53,043 bases of DNA from an uncultured Eubacteriales bacterium (GTDB taxonomy: Bacteria > Bacillota > Clostridia > Lachnospirales > CAG-274), in NCBI GenBank assembly GCA_949738935.1, contig CATJCJ010000568.1, positions 1 to 53,043 of the forward strand, written 5' to 3'. Positions within the stretch are counted from its first letter, which is position 1. Each line of letters opens with the position of its first letter. Of this stretch, positions 522-39,536 are shown piece by piece. The notes beneath the pieces are model-generated. The model had not been told where the DNA came from and ran no database searches. It saw nothing but the letters and a program-made list of their open reading frames with translations. Both the position numbers and the translations under genes were made by a program.

Positions 522-1370
522 ATGAATGCTTATATTTATCAAAAATCGGAACAATATTTTGCTTTTAATATTTGGAATATTGAATCAGCAAAAGCTGTGA
601 TTGATGCAGCAGCGCAGATGAAAAAAAATGTGATTTTACAAACCTCAACAGAAGCATTTGTCCAAATAAATAAAGAAGAAATGCGTTTGTTTGTGTCGAA
701 TTATGCTAAAAATAAAGGAATACAGGTTTATTTACATTTAGACCATTGCAAAAAGATAGACTTAATCAAAGAAGCGATAAATTATAAATGGGATTCGGTT
801 ATGATTGACGGATCGGAATTACCTCTTGAAGAAAATATCAGAATTACAAATAAAGTGTGTGATATTACGAGAGAATATGAGATTCCGGTAGAGGCAGAGA
901 TAGGACGGATACCCAGAGCTGAAGAGGGTATTCAGGCGATGAAAACCGGAGTAGCACGGCTTAAGGATGTGCAGACTTTTATAAATGCGACAAACGTTAA
1001 TATGCTTGCTGTGGCAATTGGAACATCACATGGGATTTATCAGGGGATACCCGACTTACACTATGATCTGCTTGAAAGAGTAATGCAAATTGTAGAAGTT
1101 CCCCTTGTTATTCATGGTGGTTCAGGGATTACGGATGACATGCTTCGCCGACTTTTATCCTACAAAAATGTTAAAAAGATCAATATATCTACGGATGTTA
1201 AACAGGCATATCGTAATGGAATATATAAAAGTTTGCAAAATGGATATTTGGAAAAAGATGGATTTGATCCGCTAAAGGTAACGCATATAATTGATGACTC
1301 TATTGAGCATATGGTGAAAGAGAAATTGAGAATACTTGATAAAGATAAAAATAGGAGAGTGATAGAATGA
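522..1370 (+). CDS. Class II (zinc) DHAP-type aldolase, GatY/KbaY/FbaA family
   Basis: A zinc-dependent aldolase that joins or cleaves dihydroxyacetone phosphate and an aldehyde. The 282-residue length is normal. Family landmarks are present: HLDHC (His72, His75), MIDGSELPLEENI, VEAEIGRI (about residue 126), AIGTSHGIY (His170) and VIHGGSGI (His198), followed by KINISTDV. These supply the zinc ligands and the phosphate-binding loop. The ribosome binding site before the ATG is weak (ATCAGG). It is the first gene of a five-gene module and overlaps the next start by 4 bases. In a catabolic operon it would cleave a ketose 1-phosphate. Here, beside a cytidylyltransferase-like gene and a TagF-like gene, it more likely builds a phosphorylated ketose for export into a glycan. 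The real substrate is unknown. Confidence 0.85.
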   Translation: MNAYIYQKSEQYFAFNIWNIESAKAVIDAAAQMKKNVILQTSTEAFVQINKEEMRLFVSNYAKNKGIQVYLHLDHCKKIDLIKEAINYKWDSVMIDGSELPLEENIRITNKVCDITREYEIPVEAEIGRIPRAEEGIQAMKTGVARLKDVQTFINATNVNMLAVAIGTSHGIYQGIPDLHYDLLERVMQIVEVPLVIHGGSGITDDMLRRLLSYKNVKKINISTDVKQAYRNGIYKSLQNGYLEKDGFDPLKVTHIIDDSIEHMVKEKLRILDKDKNRRVIE

Positions 1371-2899
1371 AAACGATCCTGGTTTTGAATATGGGGATGA
1401 AAAGCATTCGAAGTATTATTTTCGATAGCGATGGAAATAAGCTTTCATCTGCATCGCTTCCAATTGAAACTTCCTTGTCAGATGAATGTGTAACACAGAA
1501 TCCCTATGAATGGTGGGAAAAAGGTAAGAATGTGATCAGAGAAACTGTTACAGATATAGGGGGGATAAAGATAGATTATTTGACGGTTACTACTTCTTCT
1601 TCCTGTCTGGTATATGTTGACAAAAAAGGAGATGCGTTAGGCCCGTGTATCATGGTGTCTGATAAAAGAGCAATCTATGAAAGTAATTTATTAAAAAACA
1701 ATTCTTTTTTCGAAAAAATCAAGAAAAATGTAGGTTTAGACGCTGATCCTTACCTTATGCTTCCTAAGGCGATCTGGGTAAAGAATCATCAAAAGGAATT
1801 ATTTAATAAAATATATAAATTTTTGGCGCCTAACGATTATCTGATTGCAAAGTTTACAAATTGTTATGTAACAGATTATATAAATGCACAAAAGTGGCAT
1901 TATGATGTGGAAAAGAAAAAATATCCTGAGGATTTGCTGAAGGATATTGGAATTTCTGTTGAATTATTTCCAGAAGTTGTGTCTCCGGGTGACTATGTGG
2001 GAACTATTAGTGAGAAAGTGGCAGAGGAGACGGGACTGCATCAAAGTGTAAAAGTGATTGCGTCTACGTATGATGCGATCTGCTCTTTTGTTGGCAGTGG
2101 GGTTTTAAAAGAGGGAGAGGCCAGTGACGTTTCAGGCACCGTAACTGTTTTTAGGACAGTGGCTAACCGAAAGATAGAGGCAGGGATTACTAAAATACAG
2201 CAGATTCCATATTTTGAAGGAAATATGAATATTGTAGGTGGGTCAAATAATCTTGGCGGCGGGTTAATTGAATGGGTAAAACAATGTTATTACCAGAATG
2301 AAGCTTTCCCATATGAATTGATGGTAAAAGATGCGGGAGAAGCATCTTTAGGCGCGGGAGGCATTATTTTTTTACCATATTTATTGGGTGAGCGGGCACC
2401 ACTGTGGGATTACAGTGCCAGGGGGGTCTTCTTTGGGCTGGAGCGTATGCATACCCGTAAGGAAATGACGAGGGCGGTTTTTGAAAGCACAGGTTTTATT
2501 GATCTTGATATGATAGCGGCCATTGGAGAAGCGGGAATAGAGGTAAATTCTATACGGTTGTCAGGAGGGCTGGCCAGACTGAATTTGATTTCACAAATTA
2601 AAGCGGACATAACAGGGCGCGAAATATCGGTTTTGTCTGAATTTGAAACTACGGCAACCGGAGCAGCAATGATTGCACTGTTCGGACAAAAGGTATATTC
2701 GTCTTTAGAAGAGGCCGTAGAACAATTTGTGAAAGTGAGGATGATTATTTGTCCTGAATATAAAAATTACTTGCAGTACCAGGAATTATATAAATTGTAC
2801 AAGGAAACTTATCAGACTTTAAGACCTTTATTTCCCAGAAGAATGAAAGTAACTGAGAAACTTTATAGAAAAAAGAGAATTAAAATCGAGAATTTGTAG
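1367..2899 (+). CDS. FGGY-family carbohydrate kinase
   Basis: An ATP-dependent sugar or polyol kinase of the xylulokinase/rhamnulokinase/glycerol kinase superfamily, 510 residues. The N-terminal FGGY_N fold runs to about residue 240. The likely catalytic base is Asp236 in STYDAICSF. The C-terminal domain carries the ATP-binding signature SGGLARLNL and a closing TATGAAMIAL motif. The phosphate loop at the N-terminus reads LNMGMKSIRS, whereas most kinases have a DxGT-like motif (MGMKS here), so the substrate may be unusual. The start codon overlaps the aldolase stop (ATGA), which implies translational coupling and a shared pathway. The aldolase, kinase and iron-ADH trio recalls fucose or rhamnose catabolism, but the downstream genes argue for a biosynthetic role. 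Confidence 0.8.
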   Translation: MKTILVLNMGMKSIRSIIFDSDGNKLSSASLPIETSLSDECVTQNPYEWWEKGKNVIRETVTDIGGIKIDYLTVTTSSSCLVYVDKKGDALGPCIMVSDKRAIYESNLLKNNSFFEKIKKNVGLDADPYLMLPKAIWVKNHQKELFNKIYKFLAPNDYLIAKFTNCYVTDYINAQKWHYDVEKKKYPEDLLKDIGISVELFPEVVSPGDYVGTISEKVAEETGLHQSVKVIASTYDAICSFVGSGVLKEGEASDVSGTVTVFRTVANRKIEAGITKIQQIPYFEGNMNIVGGSNNLGGGLIEWVKQCYYQNEAFPYELMVKDAGEASLGAGGIIFLPYLLGERAPLWDYSARGVFFGLERMHTRKEMTRAVFESTGFIDLDMIAAIGEAGIEVNSIRLSGGLARLNLISQIKADITGREISVLSEFETTATGAAMIALFGQKVYSSLEEAVEQFVKVRMIICPEYKNYLQYQELYKLYKETYQTLRPLFPRRMKVTEKLYRKKRIKIENL

Positions 2900-2910
2900 A
2901 GGGATACTAT

Positions 2911-4053
2911 ATGAAAGCGTATAGGCTAAATATTCCAACTAAAATTTATTTCGGCCGAAATATTTTAGAAGAAGCTTTGAAAGAACAACAGGAATTTGTG
3001 AGGGGAACAGTTTTAATTGTTACCAGTGGCCGCTCTCTGATTCGGCTGGGATATCTTAATGGGATTCAAAGTATACTTCAGGGAATGATGCATGTTAAGA
3101 AAGTAGTTGTTTTTAGTGAAGTAAGTGCTAATCCAAGGCTGTCGGAAGTCAAAATCGGAATCAATATCGGAAAAAAAGCGCATGCAGATATTATTATTGG
3201 ATTAGGAGGAGGAAGCGCTTTAGACGCGGCGAAAGCAATTGCAGCTGGTATAGGACATGATGAAAATATAGAAGATTTTTTTTACGGACATAAGGAAGCA
3301 ACTGAGAAAACTCTGCCTATTGTGGCGATCCCGACTACGGCGGGAACCGGAAGTGAGTTGAGTAAAGCAGCAATTCTGACAGATGATAAAAGAAAAGTAA
3401 AAGGTGGGATTAGAGGTGCGGCGCTTTATCCGGCAATTGCGATTGTGGATTCAGCTTTCACAGAAACTGTTCCAAAAAAAATTACTATGGAAACTGGATT
3501 CGATGTATTAGCACATGCAGTGGAAAGTTATATTTCAAAGGCATCTACTCCCTATACGGAAATGCAGTCGGAATATGTAATACATACTGTAGGAACATAT
3601 CTTCCAAGATTAGCGCTAAATCTTGGAGATATAGAAGCAAGAGAAAAAATGAGTTTTGCCAGTATGATTATGGGAATTAACCTTGGAAATGCGAGTACAT
3701 GTTTGCCGCATCGATTGCAATATCCGATAGGTGCGCATACAGATACAAGTCATGGATTAGGATTAGCGGCACTATTTTCCACATGGATGACTTATGAATA
3801 TAAATATTCGAGGGATAAATTAAATAAGGTTATAAAGCTCCTTAAAAATGTCGATTGTCGAGGATATGTTGAAGCGATGGAGCTAATGAGTGAATTTATT
3901 AGAAGCTTGGGTTTGCCTGTTTCACTTCGTGAGATAGGCGTTACGGAATCTTTAATTGACAGGATAGTAAATGAGGTGACCGGAAACATACAAAATGATC
4001 CGGCAGCGCAAGAGAAAGATATTATAGATAAAATTTATCGAACAGCATTTTAA
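2911..4053 (+). CDS. Iron-containing alcohol dehydrogenase
   Basis: A group III metal-dependent NAD(P)H alcohol/aldehyde oxidoreductase, 380 residues. The nucleotide-binding motif GLGGGSALDAAKA and the TTAGTGSE motif are clear. The metal ligands can be placed at Asp198, His202, His267 and His281 (FDVLAHAVESY, LPHRLQ and TSHGLG), matching the FucO pattern. A ribosome binding site (GAGGG) precedes the ATG by a short spacer, 11 bases after the kinase stop. By context it probably reduces a carbonyl group made by the aldolase or kinase steps to give an alditol. Reduction of an aldehyde by-product is the alternative. It lacks the features of the glycerol-1-phosphate dehydrogenase branch. Confidence 0.85.
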   Translation: MKAYRLNIPTKIYFGRNILEEALKEQQEFVRGTVLIVTSGRSLIRLGYLNGIQSILQGMMHVKKVVVFSEVSANPRLSEVKIGINIGKKAHADIIIGLGGGSALDAAKAIAAGIGHDENIEDFFYGHKEATEKTLPIVAIPTTAGTGSELSKAAILTDDKRKVKGGIRGAALYPAIAIVDSAFTETVPKKITMETGFDVLAHAVESYISKASTPYTEMQSEYVIHTVGTYLPRLALNLGDIEAREKMSFASMIMGINLGNASTCLPHRLQYPIGAHTDTSHGLGLAALFSTWMTYEYKYSRDKLNKVIKLLKNVDCRGYVEAMELMSEFIRSLGLPVSLREIGVTESLIDRIVNEVTGNIQNDPAAQEKDIIDKIYRTAF

Positions 4054-4068
4054 AGGAGAGGACATAAG

Positions 4069-4803
4069 ATGCAGGCAATCATTATGGCAGCTGGTAAGGG
4101 AAGTCGGTTAGGGAGCCTGACAGATGGGAAACCGAAATCTTTTGTAGAAATAAAAAAGAAAAAGTTAATTGACTATAATCTGGATTTATTGCGGCATTAT
4201 GGTGTAGATGAAATTATTATTGTTACGGGGTACCAATGTGAAGCCTTTGAAGAATTAACCAAAGGAATGAAAGATGTGTGTTTAATATATAATCCGTTTT
4301 ACGAAATGGTGAATGTGCTCGGTTCATTTTATATGGGAATGGAAAAATTACATGATGATTTTGTTTATCTTCATGCGGATACCTTATGTGAACCGGTAAT
4401 TTTTGAAAAATTGATTTGTCTTGAGGCGGAGGTAGATGCAATACTCCCAGTAGAATATGGGCCGTGTAACGAAGAGGCTATGAAATTTAGAACTGAGAAT
4501 GGTAAGCTTGTTGAGCTTACAAAGCAGATGCATGTAGACCAGGCCGAGGGTGAGTTTATTGGTATAGCTTCCTTTCGTAAGCGTATTATACCGGCTCTGC
4601 GTGCGAAAACAAAACAGTTGATGAAGGAGAAAGAGTTTGCTGCTTATTTTGAGAGCGCAATTCAGAGGTTAATTGATGAAGAGGACTTTAGAATTGAAAC
4701 AGTTCCTACAGCAGGCGCTTTCTGGGCTGAAATAGACTTCGTGGAGGATTATAAAGCGGCAGCAGCGGCAATACCGGAAAGCTTAATAAATTTAAAGGTA
4801 TAA
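4069..4803 (+). CDS. LicC/PntC-like sugar or alcohol-phosphate nucleotidyltransferase
   Basis: A nucleotidyltransferase of the RmlA/LicC fold, 244 residues. The pyrophosphorylase loop MAAGKGSRLGSLTDGKPKS (residues 6-24) binds the nucleoside triphosphate. HADTL near residue 103 and the C-terminal FWAEIDFVEDY are typical of small cytidylyltransferases such as LicC (phosphocholine) and the phosphonate-tailoring PntC. The ribosome binding site AAGGAGAGG is strong. The next gene begins at the base after its stop codon. Inference: it activates the alcohol phosphate made by the three upstream genes, probably with CTP because the next enzyme belongs to a CDP-alcohol-using family. Nucleotide choice cannot be read from sequence. 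Confidence 0.8.
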   Translation: MQAIIMAAGKGSRLGSLTDGKPKSFVEIKKKKLIDYNLDLLRHYGVDEIIIVTGYQCEAFEELTKGMKDVCLIYNPFYEMVNVLGSFYMGMEKLHDDFVYLHADTLCEPVIFEKLICLEAEVDAILPVEYGPCNEEAMKFRTENGKLVELTKQMHVDQAEGEFIGIASFRKRIIPALRAKTKQLMKEKEFAAYFESAIQRLIDEEDFRIETVPTAGAFWAEIDFVEDYKAAAAAIPESLINLKV

Positions 4804-6072
4804 ATGAAAAGGAAGAAGTATAGCAGTATGGGTTGCGAACAAAGAAGTGATATATCAGAGACACTATATATTGCAAAACGTAAAATGAAAGCTTTCATAC
4901 ATGGACTTGTATATTATGCCTGTCGTATATTCCCAATTGATCAGCAAAAGGTTGTTATGTGGACATTTGAAGGTGGCGGAGGGTATGGATGCAGCCCTAA
5001 ATATATAGCGGAAGAAATTTTAAAGAATAATCGCGCAGGGAAAACAAATTATAAAATAGTTTGGCTCTTAAATGATATAGATAAAGAGTTCCCAAGGGAA
5101 ATTAAGAAAGTAAAGAATACCGCTTGGAGCAGGGCATATCAGTTGTCCACTGCAGGCGTTTGGATTAGTAATACCAGGACCTTTTATGGAGCTCGGAAAA
5201 GAAAAAAACAATGTTATATTCAGACTTGGCATGCGACAATATGTATTAAGCCGATTGGAAAATATCGTGGCGATTTATTTCCTAAGATGGCCTATTTGGT
5301 CAGCGCATACGATTCAAAGCTGATTGATTATGTTTTGTCAGGCTCTACTTGGTGTGATTATATGTATCGGGAAGGACTGATTTATGACGGAACAATTATT
5401 AAAACAGGAACCCCAAGATGTGATGTTTTATTTAATCAAAGAGATGAAAAATATCAACAAATGCGGAGGGAGTATGGACTTCCAAATGATGTAAAAATCA
5501 TGCTGTATGCGCCGACATTTCGTGGTGGAAGTCAGAATAAAAATCGTAGCGTGAATACAGAGGAAACCACTGTAGATTTTGCAGCCCTTATTAATGCGTT
5601 GGAAAAACGATTCGGCGGCCGATGGTATATTTTTTTAAGGCTACATCCACAACTGGCGGCAAAAATGCAGGGAGTTAGAGTACGGCAGATTTCAGAACGG
5701 TTGATTGATGTAAGTCAGCGGCCGGATATGAATGAGATTATCGCAGGTGCGGATGCATTTCTGACGGACTATTCCAGTGCCATTTTTGAAAGCGCTATGA
5801 TAGAACTGCCTGGTTTTATTTATGCAGATGACTTGGAGGAATATGTGGCGGACAGAGGCGATTTGTTTTTTGATATGTATAAGTTGCCATTTCCAGTAGC
5901 TCTTAATAACGATGAGTTAATAGGTAATATTATAAATTTTGATGCTGAAAAGTATAAAGAGGCTCTTTCATCGTTTATGGATGAAGTCGGTATATTTGAA
6001 GATGGAAAAGCGAGTGAGAGAGTGATGGAGTTGATAATGAAAGAGAATATAGATTATTCAGAAAATTTTTAG
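4804..6072 (+). CDS. TagF-like CDP-polyol phosphotransferase
   Basis: A GT-B enzyme of the CDP-glycerol glycerophosphotransferase family, 422 residues, which moves a polyol phosphate from its CDP donor onto a glycan or lipid acceptor at the inner face of the membrane. The C-terminal domain shows the family landmarks YAPTFRGG, RLHPQL, DVSQRPDMNEII, FLTDYSSAIFES and YADDLEEYVADRG. An N-terminal basic and aromatic stretch (FIHGLVYYACRIFPI, about residues 31-45) may touch the membrane. The ATG directly abuts the previous stop (TAAATG), a sign of close coupling. Family members make or prime teichoic acids. Its donor here may be the product of the upstream module or of the TagD-like domain encoded at 35-37 kb. 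Confidence 0.85.
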   Translation: MKRKKYSSMGCEQRSDISETLYIAKRKMKAFIHGLVYYACRIFPIDQQKVVMWTFEGGGGYGCSPKYIAEEILKNNRAGKTNYKIVWLLNDIDKEFPREIKKVKNTAWSRAYQLSTAGVWISNTRTFYGARKRKKQCYIQTWHATICIKPIGKYRGDLFPKMAYLVSAYDSKLIDYVLSGSTWCDYMYREGLIYDGTIIKTGTPRCDVLFNQRDEKYQQMRREYGLPNDVKIMLYAPTFRGGSQNKNRSVNTEETTVDFAALINALEKRFGGRWYIFLRLHPQLAAKMQGVRVRQISERLIDVSQRPDMNEIIAGADAFLTDYSSAIFESAMIELPGFIYADDLEEYVADRGDLFFDMYKLPFPVALNNDELIGNIINFDAEKYKEALSSFMDEVGIFEDGKASERVMELIMKENIDYSENF

Positions 6073-13313: not shown

Positions 13314-13353
13314 TTTGAGATAAAATGCCGCGTTGCTTGGGAGAGAAGGAGAA

Positions 13354-14259
13354 ATGGAATATTTAAAACCTTGCTTAATTGCAGAAATTGGGTGTAATCA
13401 TAAAGGAGACATGGAAATTGCTAAGGAACTTATTAAAGTAGCATCTATATATTGTAAAGCAGATGTGGTTAAGTTCCAAAAAAGATGTAATCATGAGTTA
13501 TTAACAGTAGATCAATATAATGCGCCACATCCAAATCCAATTAATTCTTATGGAAAAACATATGGAGAGCATAGAGAATTTTTAGAATTTACAGTAGAAC
13601 AACATAAGGAATTGAAAGAATATTGTGAACAGATGAACATTATTTACAGCACTTCTGTGTGGGACATTACATCTGCAAAAGAAATTACCAAATTGAACCC
13701 CCAATTTATTAAGATACCTTCAGCAAGTAATAACGAATACTTAATGTTAGAGTGGCTGTGTGATAATTATGGTGGGGAAATTCATGTCTCCTTGGGGATG
13801 ACAACACATGAGGAGGAAGAAAGAATAGTACAATTATTTGAGAGAAAGAGACGAAATAAGGATGTGGTGTTATACATATGTACTTCTGGTTATCCGGTAT
13901 CTTTTGAAGATGTTTGCCTATTAGAAATTAAGCGAATTGAAAATATGTATGGAAAAAGAGTTAAAAAGATTGGGTTTTCTGGTCATCATCTTGGCATCGC
14001 AATAGACATTGCGGCTTATACGTTAGGCGCTTCGGTTATAGAGCGGCATTATACATTAGATCGAACTTGGAAAGGAACAGATCATGCTGCTTCTTTGGAG
14101 CCGGAGGGAATTCGAAAGTTAAAACGAAATTTAGATGCAACGTATTCCGCTCTGCAGTATAAGGAGAAAGAAATTCTAGATATTGAAATTGCTCAGAGAG
14201 AAAAATTAAAATATAAAGAACATTCGAGGGAGGAATTATACAGTGAGAAAGTTAAATAA
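13354..14259 (+). CDS. neuB: NeuB-type nonulosonic acid synthase lacking the SAF domain
   Basis: A sialic-acid-synthase family enzyme that condenses phosphoenolpyruvate with a six-carbon sugar to give a nine-carbon 2-keto acid. IAEIGCNHKGDMEIAKELI, VVKFQKR, STSVWD, KIPSASNNEYLML and GFSGHHLGIA match the TIM-barrel family. The chosen ATG follows AGAAGGAG; the upstream TTG at 13333 lacks a comparable site. At 301 residues it ends soon after the barrel and lacks the C-terminal antifreeze-like (SAF) domain found in most NeuB proteins of about 340 residues. No NeuC epimerase gene is present in the window. Together with the NeuA-HAD fusion two genes later this suggests a 9-phosphate route, perhaps to KDN. 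Confidence 0.8.
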   Translation: MEYLKPCLIAEIGCNHKGDMEIAKELIKVASIYCKADVVKFQKRCNHELLTVDQYNAPHPNPINSYGKTYGEHREFLEFTVEQHKELKEYCEQMNIIYSTSVWDITSAKEITKLNPQFIKIPSASNNEYLMLEWLCDNYGGEIHVSLGMTTHEEEERIVQLFERKRRNKDVVLYICTSGYPVSFEDVCLLEIKRIENMYGKRVKKIGFSGHHLGIAIDIAAYTLGASVIERHYTLDRTWKGTDHAASLEPEGIRKLKRNLDATYSALQYKEKEILDIEIAQREKLKYKEHSREELYSEKVK

Positions 14260-15144
14260 GATATTAATTTGGGGGGGGGGCAGTGGGGACGAAAAATTTA
14301 TTACCCATTGATTATGCATGCTGAGGCAGAACCAATCGCTTACATTGATATTAATAGCGTTAATATGGGGGAAACAATATATGGAAAGAAATTAATTTTG
14401 CCTAATCAAATATTTGAGTATGAGTTTGACAATGTTGTAATAGCAGTAGCTTCTTCAATATTGCAAAAAGAGATACTTTTAACATTAAAAGAATTAGGAA
14501 TTTCAGAAGACAAGATAATTAATATTGCCACGGATTGTGAATTTATGGATCTGTTTTCTGATCAAAGGACAAATTTTATTGAAGGATTTGCAAAATGGTT
14601 ACATGATAATAATTTGGCAAATGGAAGCGTGGCGGAATGTGGAGTAAGTAAGGGAGATTGCGCAAGATTTATAAATAGAAGCTTTCCAGAACATAAATGC
14701 TATTTGTTTGATACATTTGATGGGTTTAATAAGAAAGATCTAGATATAGAAGATTCTTTGAAAAATCCTTTGTGGAAACGCAGTCGTTTTGATTCTGAAG
14801 GTAGTATTAAAACTTATAGAAATATTGATATAAGTTATGTTCTTTCCAGAATGCCATTTAAGGATAAAATTATTGTTAGAAAAGGTTTTTTCCCAGATAC
14901 AGTAGAGGGGATAAAAGATGAATTTTGTTTTGTTAATTTAGACATGGATTTATACCAACCTATGTTAGAAGGACTGAGATTTTTTTATGATCGAGTTATA
15001 AAAGGTGGTGGTATACTGCTACATGATTATTACAATATGGATTTGGGAGTTAGGAAGGCAATTGAAGATTTTGAAACAGAGAGGGGAATAATATTAAAAA
15101 AAATACCTATAGGAGATAAGTGTAGTATATTTATTTTGAAGTAA
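14243..15144 (+). CDS. Phase-variable Rossmann-TylF methyltransferase, frameshifted (OFF) at a G10 tract
   Basis: The natural start is GTG at 14243, 8 bases after AGGGAGGA and inside the end of the neuB-like gene. From there the protein reads LNKILIW and enters a run of ten Gs. With ten, translation stops at TGA 14309 after 22 residues. With eleven (or eight) it would continue as WGGGQWGRKIYYP, completing the glycine loop of the recurring Rossmann domain, then through a TylF-like methyltransferase (AECGVSKGDCARF, FVNLDMDLYQPMLEG, GGILLHDYYNMDLG) to 15144. The open part from 14269 is intact, with no other lesion. It is therefore a single 300-residue gene switched off by one G. Internal initiation at TTG 14269 is possible but would destroy the nucleotide-binding strand. 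Confidence 0.75.
14271..14280 (+). repeat. Poly-G tract, 10 G (tract B)
   Basis: Ten Gs inside the glycine-rich loop of a Rossmann fold. The current length is out of frame. Eleven or eight Gs join GTG 14243 to the methyltransferase frame. Confidence 0.85.
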
Positions 15145-15193
15145 AGTAAAGATATATTAGTTAGATTTGGAATAAGCTTTAAGAGGAAAAATA

Positions 15194-16348
15194 ATGAATG
15201 TAGCTTTTATACCGGTTCGTGGGGGAAGTAAGTCCATACCATTAAAAAATATTCGTGAAATTGCAGGAAAACCGTTAGTATACTGGGTGGTTAAGGCAGC
15301 CAGTGATTGCCAGGATATAAATGTAATTTATGTGGCGACTGACAGTGATATGATTAAGGAAGTTGTAGAAAGTTTTGGCTTGAATAAAGTAGAAGTTATT
15401 GGAAGAAGTGCTTATACTGCATCAGATACTGCGTCTACGGAATTGGCTATGCTTGAATTTGCTGAACAATATCAATTTGATAATATTATTTTGATTCAGG
15501 CAACATCTCCATTGCTCACAGCTGACGATCTGTCTGGTGGGTTTATGGAATTTAAACGACAGAATACAGATAGTGTATTATCTGTTGTTAAGCAAAAACG
15601 TTTTTGCTGGGTAATGGATCAAGAAGGATTTGCTAAGCCTGATAACTATGATATTTTTCATAGACCGAGAAGACAGGAGTTTGACGGCTATTTGGTGGAA
15701 AATGGGGCATTTTATATAACAAGAAGAAGAAATCTTTTATCTTCCGGAAATCGTATATCGGGTAATATCCGTGTTTATGAAATGGAAGAAAGTACGTATT
15801 TCGAAATTGACGAGTTGAGTGACTGGACCATTATTGAAAGGCAATTGGAAGCTAGAATGAAAAGAGAGCGGTGTATTGTTCCAAAGATAAAGATGTTTTT
15901 GACAGATTGTGATGGGTGTTTGACAGACGGAGGAATGTATTATTCGGAAACCGGAGATGAATTGAAAAAATTTAGTACTTTGGATGGATTGGGATTCCGC
16001 ATATTAAAAGAAAAAGGGATACTGACAGGTATAATTACAGGCGAAAAAAGAGTATTAAATAAACGAAGAGCTGAAAAGCTCAAATTAGATATTTATGAAG
16101 AAGGCATATCAGATAAACTTGCTACAGTAAAAATATTATGCGAGAAGGCTGGTGTAGAGTTGAGGAATGTAGCTTATGTTGGTGATGATATAAATGATCT
16201 TGAATTAATAAGAACTGTAGGTTTTGGCTGTAGCGTGGCTAATGGTATAGAAGAAGTAAAAAAGGCGGCAACATATGTGTCTCAAAAGAAAGGAGGACAA
16301 GGTGCCGTGAGGGAAATAATAGATATGATAGTTAATTGTGGGAGTTAA
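15194..16348 (+). CDS. neuA: Bifunctional CMP-nonulosonate synthetase and HAD phosphatase
   Basis: A 384-residue fusion. Residues 1-225 are a CMP-sialate/CMP-KDO-type cytidylyltransferase: FIPVRGGSKSIPLKNIREI, YVATDSD, QATSPLL and the EIDELSDW end motif. Residues about 230-384 are a KdsC-like HAD phosphatase: FLTDCDGCLTDGG with the nucleophile Asp, then KKFSTLDGLG, GIITGE and VAYVGDDINDLELI. The pair would remove phosphate from a 9-phosphorylated nonulosonate and then activate it with CMP. This resembles the animal and Bacteroides KDN/Neu5Ac 9-phosphate route rather than the usual bacterial free-acid route. The ribosome binding site is AAGAGGAA. The sialyltransferase-like user of the product was not identified. 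Confidence 0.85.
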   Translation: MNVAFIPVRGGSKSIPLKNIREIAGKPLVYWVVKAASDCQDINVIYVATDSDMIKEVVESFGLNKVEVIGRSAYTASDTASTELAMLEFAEQYQFDNIILIQATSPLLTADDLSGGFMEFKRQNTDSVLSVVKQKRFCWVMDQEGFAKPDNYDIFHRPRRQEFDGYLVENGAFYITRRRNLLSSGNRISGNIRVYEMEESTYFEIDELSDWTIIERQLEARMKRERCIVPKIKMFLTDCDGCLTDGGMYYSETGDELKKFSTLDGLGFRILKEKGILTGIITGEKRVLNKRRAEKLKLDIYEEGISDKLATVKILCEKAGVELRNVAYVGDDINDLELIRTVGFGCSVANGIEEVKKAATYVSQKKGGQGAVREIIDMIVNCGS

Positions 16349-33888: not shown

Positions 33889-35157
33889 ATGGAGAAAATG
33901 CTATCTGTAATTATTCCTATTTTTAACGCGGAAAAATATTTAGAGCAGTGTTTAAATAGTATTTTGACTCAGCCTATTAAAAATATGGAAGTAATTTGTA
34001 TAAATGATGGTTCAACGGATGATTCATTAAAAATTCTGGAGAAAAAACAAGCAGCGGACAAAAGAATTCGAATTATAAATAAGCCTAATTCAGGATATGG
34101 AGATTCTATGAATTGGGGAATTTCAGTGGCTTGTGGCGATTATATTAGTATTGTTGAAAGTGATGATATGGTGGTGGAAGGAAAGCTAGCACTGCTTGCA
34201 AGTTATGCGGAACAAGTAGATGCTGATGTGGTAAAGGGGAATTATTATTTATTTGAAGAAAAATGGAATATTACTTTATATGAAAACCTTCAGGGATGTG
34301 TATACGGGCAAGTTATTAATTCGTCAAAGGAAGAGAAGCTTTTTCTGACAGCACCTGCTATTTGGAGTGGTGTGTATAGGCGGGAATTTCTCCTAGAAAA
34401 TGAAATATATTTTTTACAATCACCAGGTTCAGCTTATCAGGATACTTCGTTTGCTTTTAAAGTATGGGCATGTGCAAGAAGAGTTTATTTGGTAAATGAG
34501 CCAATCATATATTATCGTCAGGATAATATTGAATCCTCTAGTAATAATGATAAAAAAGTATTTGAAATCTTTAATGAAACTGCCGAAATGAGTGCATTCC
34601 TGCGAAGAAAAGGAATAACAGAGCTTTTGCCGATATGCATGAGGACAAAATTTCAGGGATATGCGTGGACATTGGATCGCCTGTCAACTGAAAATAAACT
34701 GAAATTTCTTTTAAAGCTTTATTATGATATAAGAGTAGATTTTTATGAGGGAAACTTGGTACGTAGATATTGGGAGGAGGAAAATTGGAATATAGTTTTT
34801 AATATCATTTTTAATTTGACAAAAGTCTGTGAAAATATATTAGGTGGTCAAGCAAAAGACTCAGAGCAGGTATATAGTTTGCTCAAAAAGATAGAAAAAG
34901 TTTATACTTGGGAAGTGCATAATCAGGAAGATTCCCTTTACCTGATATTAAAGGAGAAGAACGTAAAAGTAATCGCTCAAATCAATGTGGATTTAGAAGG
35001 AAATCTGATTAAAATAGAAAACGGAAAAACAGGTAAATTGCTTGCAGCAGATAGAGATATTTTGATTGTACTAAAAAGAGGAGGACAAGATGAAGAAGAG
35101 ATTATAAAAAAATTAAGCGAGAATTTTATGCGAAATTACATCGAAATAGAATGTTAA
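33889..35157 (+). CDS. GT2 family glycosyltransferase
   Basis: A 422-residue GT-A enzyme: SVIIPIFNAEKYLEQCLNSI, ICINDGSTDDS, NSGYGDSMNWGI and the VESDDM metal site. The C-terminal 150 residues are helical and have no recognised domain. RBS TGAGGGAG lies upstream of ATG 33889 at a fairly long spacing; the nearby ATG 33898 is an alternative. Its product would act in the same cytoplasmic assembly line as its neighbours. Confidence 0.8.
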   Translation: MEKMLSVIIPIFNAEKYLEQCLNSILTQPIKNMEVICINDGSTDDSLKILEKKQAADKRIRIINKPNSGYGDSMNWGISVACGDYISIVESDDMVVEGKLALLASYAEQVDADVVKGNYYLFEEKWNITLYENLQGCVYGQVINSSKEEKLFLTAPAIWSGVYRREFLLENEIYFLQSPGSAYQDTSFAFKVWACARRVYLVNEPIIYYRQDNIESSSNNDKKVFEIFNETAEMSAFLRRKGITELLPICMRTKFQGYAWTLDRLSTENKLKFLLKLYYDIRVDFYEGNLVRRYWEEENWNIVFNIIFNLTKVCENILGGQAKDSEQVYSLLKKIEKVYTWEVHNQEDSLYLILKEKNVKVIAQINVDLEGNLIKIENGKTGKLLAADRDILIVLKRGGQDEEEIIKKLSENFMRNYIEIEC

Positions 35158-35180: not shown

Positions 35181-37460
35181 ATGAGAGGAGTAACAGATAC
35201 TTTGAGTGAAAATAAATTACTATTTGATATGCAAAAAGGAATTTTGCAATGGTACGAATTTGATGCTGGTTCTAATATTCTTATTGTAGGGGGAAATGCC
35301 AGCTTGATAAATTTCCTTGTGGATTTACAGCTAGAGGTTTGTTGTCTTACTCCATATGAATTAGTCAAACATGAAACTATAAATAGAAGGTATGATTATA
35401 TTGTAGCAATACAAGTTTTAGAGAAAACAGATGATCCTTTAAAACTATTAAAAATAATGAGCGATTTGCTGAAGGCAGAAGGAAAATTACTTTTAGGGGT
35501 AGATAACCGATTAGGGATTCGTTATTTTTGTGGAGAGCAGGATCCATATACTAAAGGATATTTTGACGGTATTGAGGGATACCCGGCTTCACATATATGT
35601 ACTGCACATATGCAGGGAAAATCATATGCACGATATGAAATTGAAGAATTATTGGAAACTTCGGGATTACCTCATAGAAAGTTTTATTCCGTACTTCCCA
35701 ATTTAGAAATAGCGCAGCAGTTATATGCAGATGGAATATATCCTGCTGAAGAACTTGCGGCAAGTTATGCACCTTTTTATAAGAAGAATAATGAAATATT
35801 TATGCATGAAGAATTAATTTATACAAGTCTTATAAAAAATAATATGTTTCATCAAATGGCTAATTCCTATTTTATTGAGGCTAGTAGAAAGGAAAATTTT
35901 ATTGATGTAAATCAAGTCACAATGTCAAATGACAGAGGGGCTGAGTGCGCAATGACAACAATAGTACGCTCTAAAATTGTTGAAAAGAAAGTAGTATACA
36001 AGGAAGGGTATGAGAGATTAAACAATTTGAAAAAAAATCAGGAATATCTAGCAATGCGAGGGATTCCTGTAGTTGATGGCAGGTTGAAAGGTAATAAATA
36101 TGAAATGCCATTTATAAATGCTATGTTAGGAAATGTATATTTAAGTGAACTATTATGTTACGACTTAAATATATTTATTAAGAAAATGGATCTTTTCCGT
36201 GATTTAATTATCGCCTCATCAGATATATATGAAGAGAATGAGTATGGTTTAATTTTAGAGAAGGGGCTTATTGACCTTGTTCCCTTAAATTCATTTTATT
36301 TGAAAGGCGAATTTGTATTTTTTGATCAGGAATATAGTATAAATAAACTTCCTATGAATGTAATCTTATTTCGCTCCTTAGTAATTATATATAGTTCTTT
36401 GAAAGGGAAAGCCTTGGCATCAATTGATTTTTTCTTTGATAGATATCATATGAGAGAACATTTGCAGAGGTATAGTGACATATCCTCGGAGTTTTTAGCA
36501 AAATTAAAAAATCAAAAAATATTAAAAGAGTTTAATTTTAAACATCGAGCATCGTTACAGGTAGTGAATAGAAATCGAAAGAAATTTGGGGGTAGTATGA
36601 CGGATATAGATGTAATCAAAGAAAGCTTATTGGAAACTTGCTTTGACAATATAGGCGGTAGGAAGTTATTTATTTTCGGTTCAGGTAGATATGCAGATGA
36701 ATTTTTAGCAATGTATCGCTATGATTATAAAATCGCAGGAATCTTGGATAACAATAGTGAAAAATGGGGGGAAGAATTATACGGCGTACCTATTACTTCA
36801 ACGGAAATTTTGAGTAAATATGATGCAGAGGATTATAAAGTGATCATCTGTATAAAAAATTTTGAGCCTATTTTTTATCAATTACATGAGTTAAAAGTAA
36901 AATATATTGGCCTTTATCATATTAATTATATGTACCCTGGAAGGCAAAAATACCTACCAGGAAAAGATGGATTAGCCGAAAAGCAAAATTTTATAAATGA
37001 ATTTGAGAAGCAAATAAGTGAAAAGGGTCGAAAACATTATCACATAGGATATATTGCAGGGGTATTTGATTTGTATCATTTAGGTCATCTTAATATGTTT
37101 CGCAGAGCTAAAAACTTATGTGATTATTTAATTGTAGGAGTGGTAAGCGATGAAGGAGTTCGAAGTAATAAAAGGACAGAACCTTTTGTGCCTTTTTCAG
37201 AAAGGATTGAAATAATTCGATCTTGCCGATATGTAGATGAAGCAGTTGAAATTCCTTTAATTTACTGTAGAACACCAGAAGCATATCGCAAATATCACTT
37301 TGATGTTCAATTTTCTGGAAGTGATTATGAAAATGATCCAGGGTGGCTGGCTATGAAAGATTTTTTAAATTCTAATGGGGCAGATTTGATTTTTTTTCCA
37401 TACACGCAGCAAACAAGCTCTACTAAGATAAAGACTTTAATTGAACAGAGGCTGTTATAA
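35181..37460 (+). CDS. Three-part protein: methyltransferase-like, Rossmann module, TagD-like cytidylyltransferase
   Basis: A 759-residue protein with an unusual build. Residues about 25-150 resemble a class I methyltransferase (ILIVGGNASLINFL, YIVAIQVLEKTDDP), followed by a long region of no known type that includes VVYKEGYERL. Residues about 494-590 are the recurring Rossmann module (LFIFGSGRYADEF, ILDNNSEKWGEELYGVPI). Residues about 620-759 are a glycerol-3-phosphate cytidylyltransferase (TagD) type nucleotidyltransferase with GVFDLYHLGHL (HxGH at 633-636), FVPFSERIEIIRS and SSTKI near the end. It would make a CDP-alcohol, probably CDP-glycerol, for the TagF-like enzyme at 4804. A frameshift-free frame runs throughout. 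The start ATG 35181 has only a weak ribosome binding site. Confidence 0.8.
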   Translation: MRGVTDTLSENKLLFDMQKGILQWYEFDAGSNILIVGGNASLINFLVDLQLEVCCLTPYELVKHETINRRYDYIVAIQVLEKTDDPLKLLKIMSDLLKAEGKLLLGVDNRLGIRYFCGEQDPYTKGYFDGIEGYPASHICTAHMQGKSYARYEIEELLETSGLPHRKFYSVLPNLEIAQQLYADGIYPAEELAASYAPFYKKNNEIFMHEELIYTSLIKNNMFHQMANSYFIEASRKENFIDVNQVTMSNDRGAECAMTTIVRSKIVEKKVVYKEGYERLNNLKKNQEYLAMRGIPVVDGRLKGNKYEMPFINAMLGNVYLSELLCYDLNIFIKKMDLFRDLIIASSDIYEENEYGLILEKGLIDLVPLNSFYLKGEFVFFDQEYSINKLPMNVILFRSLVIIYSSLKGKALASIDFFFDRYHMREHLQRYSDISSEFLAKLKNQKILKEFNFKHRASLQVVNRNRKKFGGSMTDIDVIKESLLETCFDNIGGRKLFIFGSGRYADEFLAMYRYDYKIAGILDNNSEKWGEELYGVPITSTEILSKYDAEDYKVIICIKNFEPIFYQLHELKVKYIGLYHINYMYPGRQKYLPGKDGLAEKQNFINEFEKQISEKGRKHYHIGYIAGVFDLYHLGHLNMFRRAKNLCDYLIVGVVSDEGVRSNKRTEPFVPFSERIEIIRSCRYVDEAVEIPLIYCRTPEAYRKYHFDVQFSGSDYENDPGWLAMKDFLNSNGADLIFFPYTQQTSSTKIKTLIEQRLL

Positions 37461-37473
37461 GAAAGGTATTAAC

Positions 37474-38802
37474 ATGAAAAAAACATATTTTAAATTAGCC
37501 AAAATTATAAGTAGTATAGTATTTGTATTGTTTGTTTTGCTTATTGGTTTTTATCATTTTCCTAATAGAGAATTAAATTTATTAGTCGAAACTAATGACG
37601 GGATTTATAGATTAAAGCTTTCAGTAAATGAGATTTATAGTAACGATAAACTAGTATTAAATTTTGCAGATACAAAGGGAATAATTATAAGAGAAATCAA
37701 TATTTATAGAAACTTAAAGTCTGTTTGTGTTAAAAGTCTACCATATGGAGAATTTGCAGCATTTATAGATTCAGTGCCGGAAGGAGAGCAAGTGTGGCTA
37801 GAAGATGGAATAGAATTTTCAGGAAATGATGGCGTACAAATTGTTTTAAATGAAAATGGAAAGAAAATGATAACGAATCTTTCTAAATCATTTTTGCTAG
37901 AAAGACTTTGCATAGCAGAGGGTATGCTTATTATTTTTATGTTGATTTTTGTGGGTATTACTGCAGCAGAAGAGAAGTATAACCCTAAAAATCGTAATAA
38001 TCATGGACCAATTTATGAGGCAAAGAGATTTTTTTATGATATAAAGAAATATAGTACATATATGGTATATGCAGCAAAAACTGATTTGAAAGCTGAAGTG
38101 GCAAATTCCTATTTGAATAGGTTATGGTGGTTGCTAGAGCCATTTTTTAATATGTTAGTGTATGTTATTGTATTTGGTGGAATGATGGGGCGGTCAATTG
38201 AAAATTACGCAACTTTTGTTTTTTCAGCTTTACTTATGTGGAATTTTTTTAGTAAGACCATTAATTACAGTGTTAAACTTGTAAGAAATAATAAAGATAT
38301 AGTAACTAAAGTATATGTGCCTAAGTTTGTACTTCTTTTATCGAATATGTTTCTTAATTTGTTCAAACTGTTATTTTCTATGATAGTATTAGTAATTATG
38401 CTTATTATATTTAGAATACCTATTGGGCTAAATACTTTTATGGTGTTGCCACCATTTGCAATTTTAATCATGCTTGCCTTTGGACTGGGAATGATTTTTT
38501 TACATTATGGTGTCTACGTTGATGATTTGTCTTATGCAGTTGGAATATTGCTAAGTATGCTTATGCTTTTATCTGGAATTTTTTATGAAGTAGTTTCAAC
38601 ATTGTCAGAGCCTTTAAACGTTATGATGATAACGCTAAATCCAGTAGCAATGGTAGTTGATACAATGCGTCATGCTTTGCTATATCAAGAGATTGTAAAT
38701 ATACCAATGCTCATCTTATGGTTTTTTATTTCATTAATTTTATGTTGTATAGGCATTCATGTTGTTTATAAAAATGAAAATGGTTATGTAAAGGTGGTAT
38801 AG
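37474..38802 (+). CDS. ABC-2 polysaccharide/teichoic acid exporter permease with N-terminal extra domain
   Basis: A 442-residue membrane protein. From about residue 190 it is a TagG/Wzm-type ABC-2 permease (YLNRLWWLLEPFFNMLVYVI, VVDTMRHALL and about six membrane segments). Before that lies an extra part: a membrane segment (residues 7-27), an outside domain of roughly 100 residues rich in beta pattern, and a second membrane segment near 140-160. Ordinary TagG/Wzm proteins (about 260-280 residues) lack this. ATG 37474 is chosen for its AGAAAGG site; the upstream TTG overlaps the previous gene. It works with the ATPase encoded next. Confidence 0.8.
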   Translation: MKKTYFKLAKIISSIVFVLFVLLIGFYHFPNRELNLLVETNDGIYRLKLSVNEIYSNDKLVLNFADTKGIIIREINIYRNLKSVCVKSLPYGEFAAFIDSVPEGEQVWLEDGIEFSGNDGVQIVLNENGKKMITNLSKSFLLERLCIAEGMLIIFMLIFVGITAAEEKYNPKNRNNHGPIYEAKRFFYDIKKYSTYMVYAAKTDLKAEVANSYLNRLWWLLEPFFNMLVYVIVFGGMMGRSIENYATFVFSALLMWNFFSKTINYSVKLVRNNKDIVTKVYVPKFVLLLSNMFLNLFKLLFSMIVLVIMLIIFRIPIGLNTFMVLPPFAILIMLAFGLGMIFLHYGVYVDDLSYAVGILLSMLMLLSGIFYEVVSTLSEPLNVMMITLNPVAMVVDTMRHALLYQEIVNIPMLILWFFISLILCCIGIHVVYKNENGYVKVV

Positions 38803-38804
38803 AA

Positions 38805-39536
38805 ATGAAGGAAATAGCGTTAGAAGTAAGCCATGTAAGCATTGATTATCGTAATTTGATGCACATGTCATTGCATCAGAGTTTTGCAAAGGATAAAGTT
38901 AAAAAAATTGATATTATACGAGCAGTGAATGATGTTTCCTTTTCCGTAAATAGAGGTGAAATTTTAGGAATTGTAGGAAGAAACGGTTCGGGAAAAACAA
39001 CTCTTTTGCGTTCGGTTGCTGGAATATTTCAACCAGATGAAGGTGTAATAGATACGAAGGGAAATAGAGTGTCCCTTATGGCTATTGGAATTGGATTTAA
39101 TGGGAATAATACAGGACGTGAAAATATATTAAAATCGGGAATGCTATTGGGGTGCGAGTTAGATTATGTTAAGGAACATATGGAAAGGATTATAGAATTT
39201 TCTGAATTGGGAGATTTTATAGATAGACCTGTTAGAACATATTCGAGTGGTATGTATTCCAAATTATCGTTTGCAGTAACAGCAATTTTAGATACCGATA
39301 TAATGTTAGTAGACGAAGTTTTATCTGTGGGAGATGAAAGATTTCGTAAAAAAAGCTATAAAAAGATGGAGGAGCTTATGCTAAGTGATAGAACAGTATT
39401 AATTGTTTCCCACGCAACTGATACGTTAAAGAAATTTTGTGATAAAGTTTTGTGGATTAATGATGGTCGATTTATGAAATTGGGTGATACAGAAGAGGTA
39501 TTAAAAGAATATGATGCATTCATGCAATTGGAGTAA
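38805..39536 (+). CDS. ABC exporter ATPase, TagH/Wzt type
   Basis: A 243-residue ATP-binding subunit that powers export of the finished glycan. Walker A GRNGSGKTT, signature YSSGMYSKLSFA, Walker B DIMLVDEVLSVGD and the switch histidine in IVSHATDTL are all present. The insertion GIGFNGNNTGRENILKSG is typical of Wzt/TagH. It has no C-terminal carbohydrate-binding domain of the Wzt-C type, so recognition of a modified glycan end is not indicated. It is the last gene of the + strand locus and starts 2 bases after the permease stop. Confidence 0.9.
   Translation: MKEIALEVSHVSIDYRNLMHMSLHQSFAKDKVKKIDIIRAVNDVSFSVNRGEILGIVGRNGSGKTTLLRSVAGIFQPDEGVIDTKGNRVSLMAIGIGFNGNNTGRENILKSGMLLGCELDYVKEHMERIIEFSELGDFIDRPVRTYSSGMYSKLSFAVTAILDTDIMLVDEVLSVGDERFRKKSYKKMEELMLSDRTVLIVSHATDTLKKFCDKVLWINDGRFMKLGDTEEVLKEYDAFMQLE

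Follow-up and report, generated by a model that had tools for sequence, protein, structure and literature searches.

A four-domain fusion protein with a predicted kinase and a C-terminal cytidylyltransferase-like domain: a candidate CDP-alcohol-forming enzyme of bacterial glycan loci

Several described systems each share a part of the protein analyzed here. In the lic1 pathway (LicA-LicC-LicD), as outlined in the account of PMC4364537, a kinase acts first, followed by a cytidylyltransferase and then by LicD, which transfers onto a surface glycan. WbdD of Escherichia coli O9a has an N-terminal methyltransferase fold followed by a kinase, according to the domain description in PMC3482155. The Type A flagellin pathway of Clostridioides difficile (CD0241-CD0244) comprises a HAD protein, a nucleotidyltransferase, a methyltransferase and a TagF-like protein, and the part of PMC10714395 that deals with it proposes a phospho-substituent on flagellin made via a CDP intermediate. 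In addition, a PF01467 domain is fused to the substrate-making enzyme in PEP mutases such as Fom1, a fusion that the relevant passage of PMC6697681 gives for 23.6% of PEP mutases.

Here, we analyzed a stretch of DNA of 53,043 nucleotides (the window) from an uncultured Eubacteriales bacterium; the source assembly has a contamination of 8.56%, thus the host assignment of the contig is uncertain. One gene of the window encodes a protein of 759 residues in which four domains follow one another:

35181..37460, + strand: the whole gene, 759 aa, methyltransferase-like, kinase, Rossmann and cytidylyltransferase domains (open reading frame, 15 full-length homologues, AF2 model)
35181..35894, + strand: methyltransferase-like domain, residues 1-238, probably non-catalytic (Methyltransf_23 at cut-off; methyltransferase fold; SAM motif absent)
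35274..35315, + strand: eroded SAM motif I site, residues 32-45 (fusion alignment)
35895..36650, + strand: predicted kinase domain, residues 239-490 (fold match of the model and conserved catalytic residues)
35985, 36273, 36288 and 36324, + strand: candidate catalytic residues K269, D365, N370 and D382 (alignment of 42 fusions)
36651..36980, + strand: Rossmann module, PglD_N-like, residues 491-600 (Pfam sub-threshold match and family profile)
37029..37457, + strand: cytidylyltransferase-like domain, residues 617-759, with HLGH at 37077-37088 (PF01467; matches to TagD 1coz/2b7l and to ethanolamine-phosphate cytidylyltransferase 3elb)

The open reading frame starts with ATG and contains no internal stop, and the AlphaFold (AF2) model of the whole protein has a mean pLDDT of 82.5. 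Fifteen full-length homologues, each a single open frame with 39-48% identity to the window protein, were found in other genomes, 11 by a scan of named genomes, where they cover most of the query, and four among 146 genomes related to that of the window; of the 11, most are annotated as Lachnospiraceae, Oscillospiraceae, Treponema or Spirochaetaceae. This means that the arrangement is real, and a frameshift, an assembly artefact or a chance fusion is excluded. We found no description of a methyltransferase-kinase-Rossmann-cytidylyltransferase fusion in the open-access literature.

The N-terminal domain is modelled with a methyltransferase fold (VIA Z up to 14.6), and Pfam Methyltransf_23 matches residues 68-110 with 27.1 bits against a cut-off of 27. 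The methyltransferase-like part named in the first-pass annotation is thus present as a fold; however, the loss of its SAM site had been missed. SAM motif I occurs in none of the 42 fusions, 38 of which have the region complete. The motif is intact in all 15 free relatives of the methyltransferase domain from other genomes and is found in 10 of 11 methyltransferase-kinase proteins lacking the cytidylyltransferase, the exception (L081) being a fragment that is identical to the intact fusion L070 in the motif region. In the fusion family, about 42 residues, instead of about 60, lie between beta1 and beta4; in methyltransferases, this stretch lines the cofactor pocket. Since the SAM motif is missing in every fusion, an active methyltransferase is judged unlikely, with atypical SAM binding being possible, and by its sequence the domain is probably dead and predicted to be a scaffold. 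On the kinase tree, the fusion label needs two changes and is compatible with one, so the fusions may be of single origin; for this reason, the SAM motif was probably lost once and the loss kept since, rather than lost many times independently.

A clade of four free-standing methyltransferase-kinase proteins of about 550 residues (L088, L089, L090, which is the L055 gene, and L091) carries the SAM motif, and its kinase positions have changed, D382 to Asn in all four and D365 to Asn in three. The L088 and L090 genes lie beside sufC, sufB and sufS-like genes (a suf operon, judged by eye). A Pseudomonas asturiensis plasmid protein of 1457 residues (L120:4590-8963), located directly after an ABC transporter pair, also begins with a methyltransferase domain; a kinase-like D-x4-N...D pattern is visible by eye, and the kinase profile gave no match to it.

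The most important addition to the earlier picture of an activating enzyme with attached parts is a kinase domain that had been overlooked, and with it the reading becomes that of a two-step enzyme. The Pfam search of the 759-residue protein gave no plausible family between residues 110 and 490, which includes the stretch (150-490) proposed earlier for a domain search, nor did it give one in any of 16 aligned sequences of the kinase stretch; having no Pfam match, the domain is left unlabelled in many genomes. Modelled alone with the 16 aligned sequences, residues 228-480 reached a mean pLDDT of 86.9. Foldseek placed RIO kinases on top (RioK1, E 9.6e-7, TM ~0.4) and, at lower rank, phosphotransferases of the macrolide and aminoglycoside types and the choline-bound LicA of pneumococcus (4r7b, E 2.4e-3). 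VIA-align gave Z 13.4 with APH(3')-Ia (rmsd 3.9 A over 183 residues), 12.7 with a KEOPS (Bud32-type) chain, 12.6 with PRPK, 12.0 with RIO1 and 10.9 with WaaP (6dfl). In the model, then, residues 239-490 fold as an APH/RIO/LicA-type kinase. D365, N370 and D382 are kept in 42/42 distinct fusions and K269 in 41/42. The spacing of D365-x4-N370...D382 in the window protein (5 and 12 residues) is close to that of Asp176/Asn181/Asp194 in LicA (5 and 13, in the account of PMC4364537) and of the N356/D369 pair in WbdD (13, as described in PMC3482155). In an even sample of the phylum, the kinase domain occurs in 6 of 398 genomes; in one family of that phylum, it occurs in 46 of 189, mostly as the fusion.

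The C-terminal domain certainly belongs to the PF01467 superfamily: CTP_transf_like matches residues 625-752 with 69.2 bits (cut-off 21, E 5e-19), and the HxGH motif is HLGH at residues 633-636. An HxGH cytidylyltransferase-like domain at the end of a large single protein, as noted in the first pass, is therefore well founded, and the loss of its key residues, which was looked for, did not appear. D630, H633, H636 and K664 are kept in 42/42 fusions, R675 and D686 in 41/42, and G713, D715 and T742 in all 40 that cover those positions. The last motif, RTEGIST in TagD, has Tyr at the position of the TagD-type Arg in 40 of the 40 fusions that cover it, so a substrate or nucleotide other than that of TagD is possible. 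Among solved structures, the closest in sequence by phmmer are ethanolamine-phosphate cytidylyltransferase (3elb) at E 8e-21 and TagD at E 5e-12, and the fold search gave Z 15.2 for TagD (2b7l) and 14.9 for the Fom1-type 5x3d. The TagD equivalog model TIGR01518 was not reached (64.8 bits versus a cut-off of 165.4), and the HldE (40.3 of 521 bits) and RfaE (62.6 of 181.5 bits) equivalogs stayed far under theirs. CTP is, by these sequence relationships, the likely nucleotide. A pure TagD with decorative domains is unlikely, given the conserved kinase site. Of 60 matched records from a plasmid collection, seven with stand-alone relatives of the cytidylyltransferase were inspected: four of these genes adjoin TagF or LicD, for two more a CDP-alcohol phosphatidyltransferase is encoded within 5 kb, and the remaining one, in Pantoea, has none of the three as a neighbour.

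Between the two domains lies the Rossmann module, which matches the PglD_N-type family at residues 495-558 with 21.5 bits, under the cut-off of 23.4, and may bind a nucleotide or a partner. Its recurrence through the locus, claimed earlier, is borne out by the fusion-family profile, which finds four further window proteins at E <= 3.2e-7, and nine with a second-round profile.

Separate genes in close relatives, which had been named as a finding that would speak against the fusion, are not the general case and occur only in a sister lineage. L085, L086 and L087 encode a related methyltransferase-kinase-LicD-Rossmann protein, followed immediately by a gene for cytidylyltransferase-HAD-Rossmann; in L093, the methyltransferase-kinase-Rossmann, cytidylyltransferase and LicD-Rossmann proteins each have a gene of their own, all inside 8 kb. 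The separate cytidylyltransferase being adjacent or two genes away supports a shared pathway with the kinase. The catalytic Asp of the kinase is Glu in 4/4 proteins of this split lineage. The cytidylyltransferase-HAD-Rossmann fusions are 510-528 residues long (L085:6058-7590, L087:5681-7216, L093:4279-5865).

We compared 25 fusion loci (the window and 24 others, two of them near-identical). Within the fetched stretch, LicD is a neighbour in 7/25, a TagF-type gene in 6/25 and either in 12/25, counts that have no matched control and concern genes common in polysaccharide loci. Flagellin genes or FlaG-FliD-FliS lie in three fusion loci (L095, L101, L048) and in two of the four split loci. In 14/25 (for example L047:7375-9722), two genes for xylose-isomerase-like TIM-barrel proteins lie beside the fusion or close to it, and one of the two proteins ends in the same Rossmann module; the nearest solved relative of one TIM-barrel protein is MJ1311 (E 0.0047), which points to no particular substrate, no solved relative of the second was found, and the pair is absent from the window. 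An uncharacterised protein of 850 residues with only a weak match to the BFO_1060 glycosyltransferase family lies near the fusion in four loci (L047:11867-14416, L048:6392-8911, L009:11977-14550, L102:11610-13886).

In the window itself, the genes that bear on a transferase and an acceptor are as follows:

4069..4803, + strand: separate LicC-like nucleotidyltransferase, beside the TagF-like gene (PF12804)
4804..6072, + strand: TagF-like phosphotransferase, candidate CDP-alcohol user (PF04464, E 1e-67)
33889..35157, + strand: GT2 glycosyltransferase, directly upstream of the fusion, with relatives upstream in several fusion loci
37441..38802, + strand: Wzm-like permease, directly downstream of the fusion (PF01061; same order in L007, L011 and L012)
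38805..39536, + strand: Wzt/TagH-like ATPase (NCBIfam TagH-type best match; 79-84% identical in L007, L011 and L012)

The permease has an N-terminal extension of about 200 residues, here as in L007, L011 and L012. The locus indeed holds two predicted activating enzymes, as had been stated, namely the LicC-like protein beside the TagF-like one and the fusion, and the window holds a single TagF-like transferase, with three TagF-family matches in the genome as a whole. The two different polyol-phosphate substituents proposed earlier on this ground may exist. Genes for an aldolase, an FGGY kinase, an iron alcohol dehydrogenase and the LicC-like and TagF-like proteins stand in a row at 522-6072, and judged from these assignments this looks like a complete, separate CDP-polyol route. 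A local LicD profile found nothing convincing among the window proteins (best E 0.042), and no LicD match in the window's genome exceeded the family cut-off. An alternative transferase among the unclassified proteins of the window, suggested earlier, is possible and not required. The stretch 13333-16348 encodes a NeuB-like synthase together with a CMP-sugar synthetase that carries a HAD phosphatase in the same chain, which suggests a nonulosonic acid in this locus.

We think it rather probable that the 759-residue protein combines an alcohol kinase and a cytidylyltransferase in one bifunctional enzyme, whose CDP-activated alcohol would serve a transferase of the LicD or TagF type. The APH/LicA-fold domain would transfer phosphate from ATP to a hydroxyl group of an alcohol, a polyol or a sugar, and the C-terminal domain would use CTP to activate the resulting phosphate as a CDP-alcohol. 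The transferase, TagF- or LicD-type, would then move the phospho-alcohol onto a glycan; in the window locus this is probably the glycan that the Wzm/Wzt pair encoded downstream exports, and in some relatives flagellin is the likely acceptor. The methyltransferase domain, its SAM binding gone, would act as a scaffold, and the Rossmann domain may bind a nucleotide or a partner. From fold, conservation and linkage, we infer this mechanism, including both activities, the coupling of the two steps, CTP and the acceptor. The conserved kinase and cytidylyltransferase residues, the kinase fold, the LicD/TagF linkage and, as far as the cited passages go, the precedent of PF01467 fusions with substrate enzymes in PEP mutases and Fom1 favour it. 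Weighing against it are the lack of LicD in the window, the position of the TagF gene beside another nucleotidyltransferase, the Glu that replaces Asp in the split lineage, the Tyr where TagD has Arg, the Pantoea exception and the WaaP match, since the kinase might act on the end of a glycan, as WbdD and WaaP do.

This last point leads to a different reading, in which a WbdD-like glycan kinase would phosphorylate the non-reducing end as an export or length signal and the cytidylyltransferase would separately convert a common phosphate, for instance glycerol 3-phosphate, to a CDP-alcohol. The methyltransferase-then-kinase order is that of WbdD, Wzm/Wzt directly follow the fusion in the window as well as in L007, L011 and L012, and in L092 a methyltransferase-kinase-GT2 protein without cytidylyltransferase comes just before Wzm/Wzt, which together with the WaaP score would fit such a signal. 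However, these four are the only loci of the 25 with Wzm/Wzt as the next two genes, the fusion does not end in a coiled coil, a methylation step like that of WbdD would be lacking with motif I gone, no sequence match to the WbdD entry 4AZS was obtained, and the fusion or adjacency of LicD and cytidylyltransferase points to one small-molecule pathway; we regard this reading as unlikely. The HAD-type domain fused to the split-lineage cytidylyltransferase, the two TIM barrels in 14 of the 25 loci and the HldC and RfaE-type domains among the matches would instead suit an ADP- or GDP-heptose-like route, where a sugar phosphate would receive a 1-phosphate from the kinase, lose its other phosphate to a HAD phosphatase and be turned into an NDP-sugar by the C-terminal domain. 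Such a route appears improbable, given the equivalog scores for HldE and RfaE, the six of seven stand-alone relatives beside LicD or TagF or near CDP-alcohol phosphatidyltransferases, and a window protein that carries no HAD fusion. It is very improbable that the domains share a polypeptide only for co-localisation at the membrane, with a regulatory or dead kinase and a cytidylyltransferase working alone: related proteins do have a dead-looking kinase (D382 to Asn in 4/5 methyltransferase-kinase proteins), but in the fusions the D, N and D are invariant over wide divergence.

Therefore, the observation is real and more interesting than first stated, owing to the unrecognised kinase and the probably dead methyltransferase. 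Going further, we tentatively suggest that the methyltransferase-kinase scaffold might have been rewired by losing different sites in different lineages, giving a live kinase and dead methyltransferase with the cytidylyltransferase, and an intact methyltransferase motif with a dead kinase in some free relatives; the fused form could then be a one-protein factory for a CDP-linked substituent new to bacteria, carried by the flagellin of some gut bacteria and by the ABC-exported glycans of others. If true, this would provide a sequence handle on uncharacterised phospho-substituents of surface glycans and flagellins in gut Clostridia and treponemes, and the fusion would be the first enzyme of that class to examine. 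The two catalytic sites of a glycan-modifying scaffold would have been lost independently, in which case a methyltransferase annotation would be wrong for the fusion group.

Compared with the known systems, the window protein shares the methyltransferase-then-kinase order of WbdD and a gene position beside an ABC glycan exporter; unlike WbdD, it has no SAM motif, and Rossmann and cytidylyltransferase domains stand where WbdD has its coiled coil. No WbdD entry was among the matches listed when the PDB was searched by sequence with the fusion, with its kinase profile and with the L092 relative, and WbdD was not among the fold matches listed, which excludes nothing. With the SAM site and coiled coil absent and no sequence match found, the fusion is, by its sequence, probably not a WbdD. 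Its C-terminal domain resembles TagD (1coz, 2b7l) and ethanolamine-phosphate cytidylyltransferase (3elb) in fold, HxGH and the conserved Lys, Arg and Asp, and departs from TagD in ending a 759-residue protein, in missing the equivalog cut-off and in the Tyr of the last motif. As in HldE, a kinase and a nucleotidyltransferase of the same superfamily share one chain; unlike HldE, whose kinase is ribokinase-like, the kinase fold is unrelated, and the equivalog score is far below cut-off. Fusions of PF01467 as such have precedent in HldE and, on the cited part of PMC6697681, in PEP mutases, where the partner is a mutase and not a kinase. CD0241-CD0244 is alike by description, as some fusion loci adjoin flagellin genes, but it consists of separate genes with a LicC-like nucleotidyltransferase, and the pathway description in PMC10714395 includes no kinase domain. 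The pathway logic is that of LicA-LicC-LicD, with a kinase of the same fold class followed by a cytidylyltransferase; unlike lic1, both steps lie in one chain, the cytidylyltransferase is of PF01467 rather than the LicC family (NTP_transf_3), eroded methyltransferase and Rossmann domains are attached, and the window has no LicD. The fusion would thus condense a pathway of the lic1 or Kennedy type into a single chain, on a scaffold whose domains are ordered as in WbdD.
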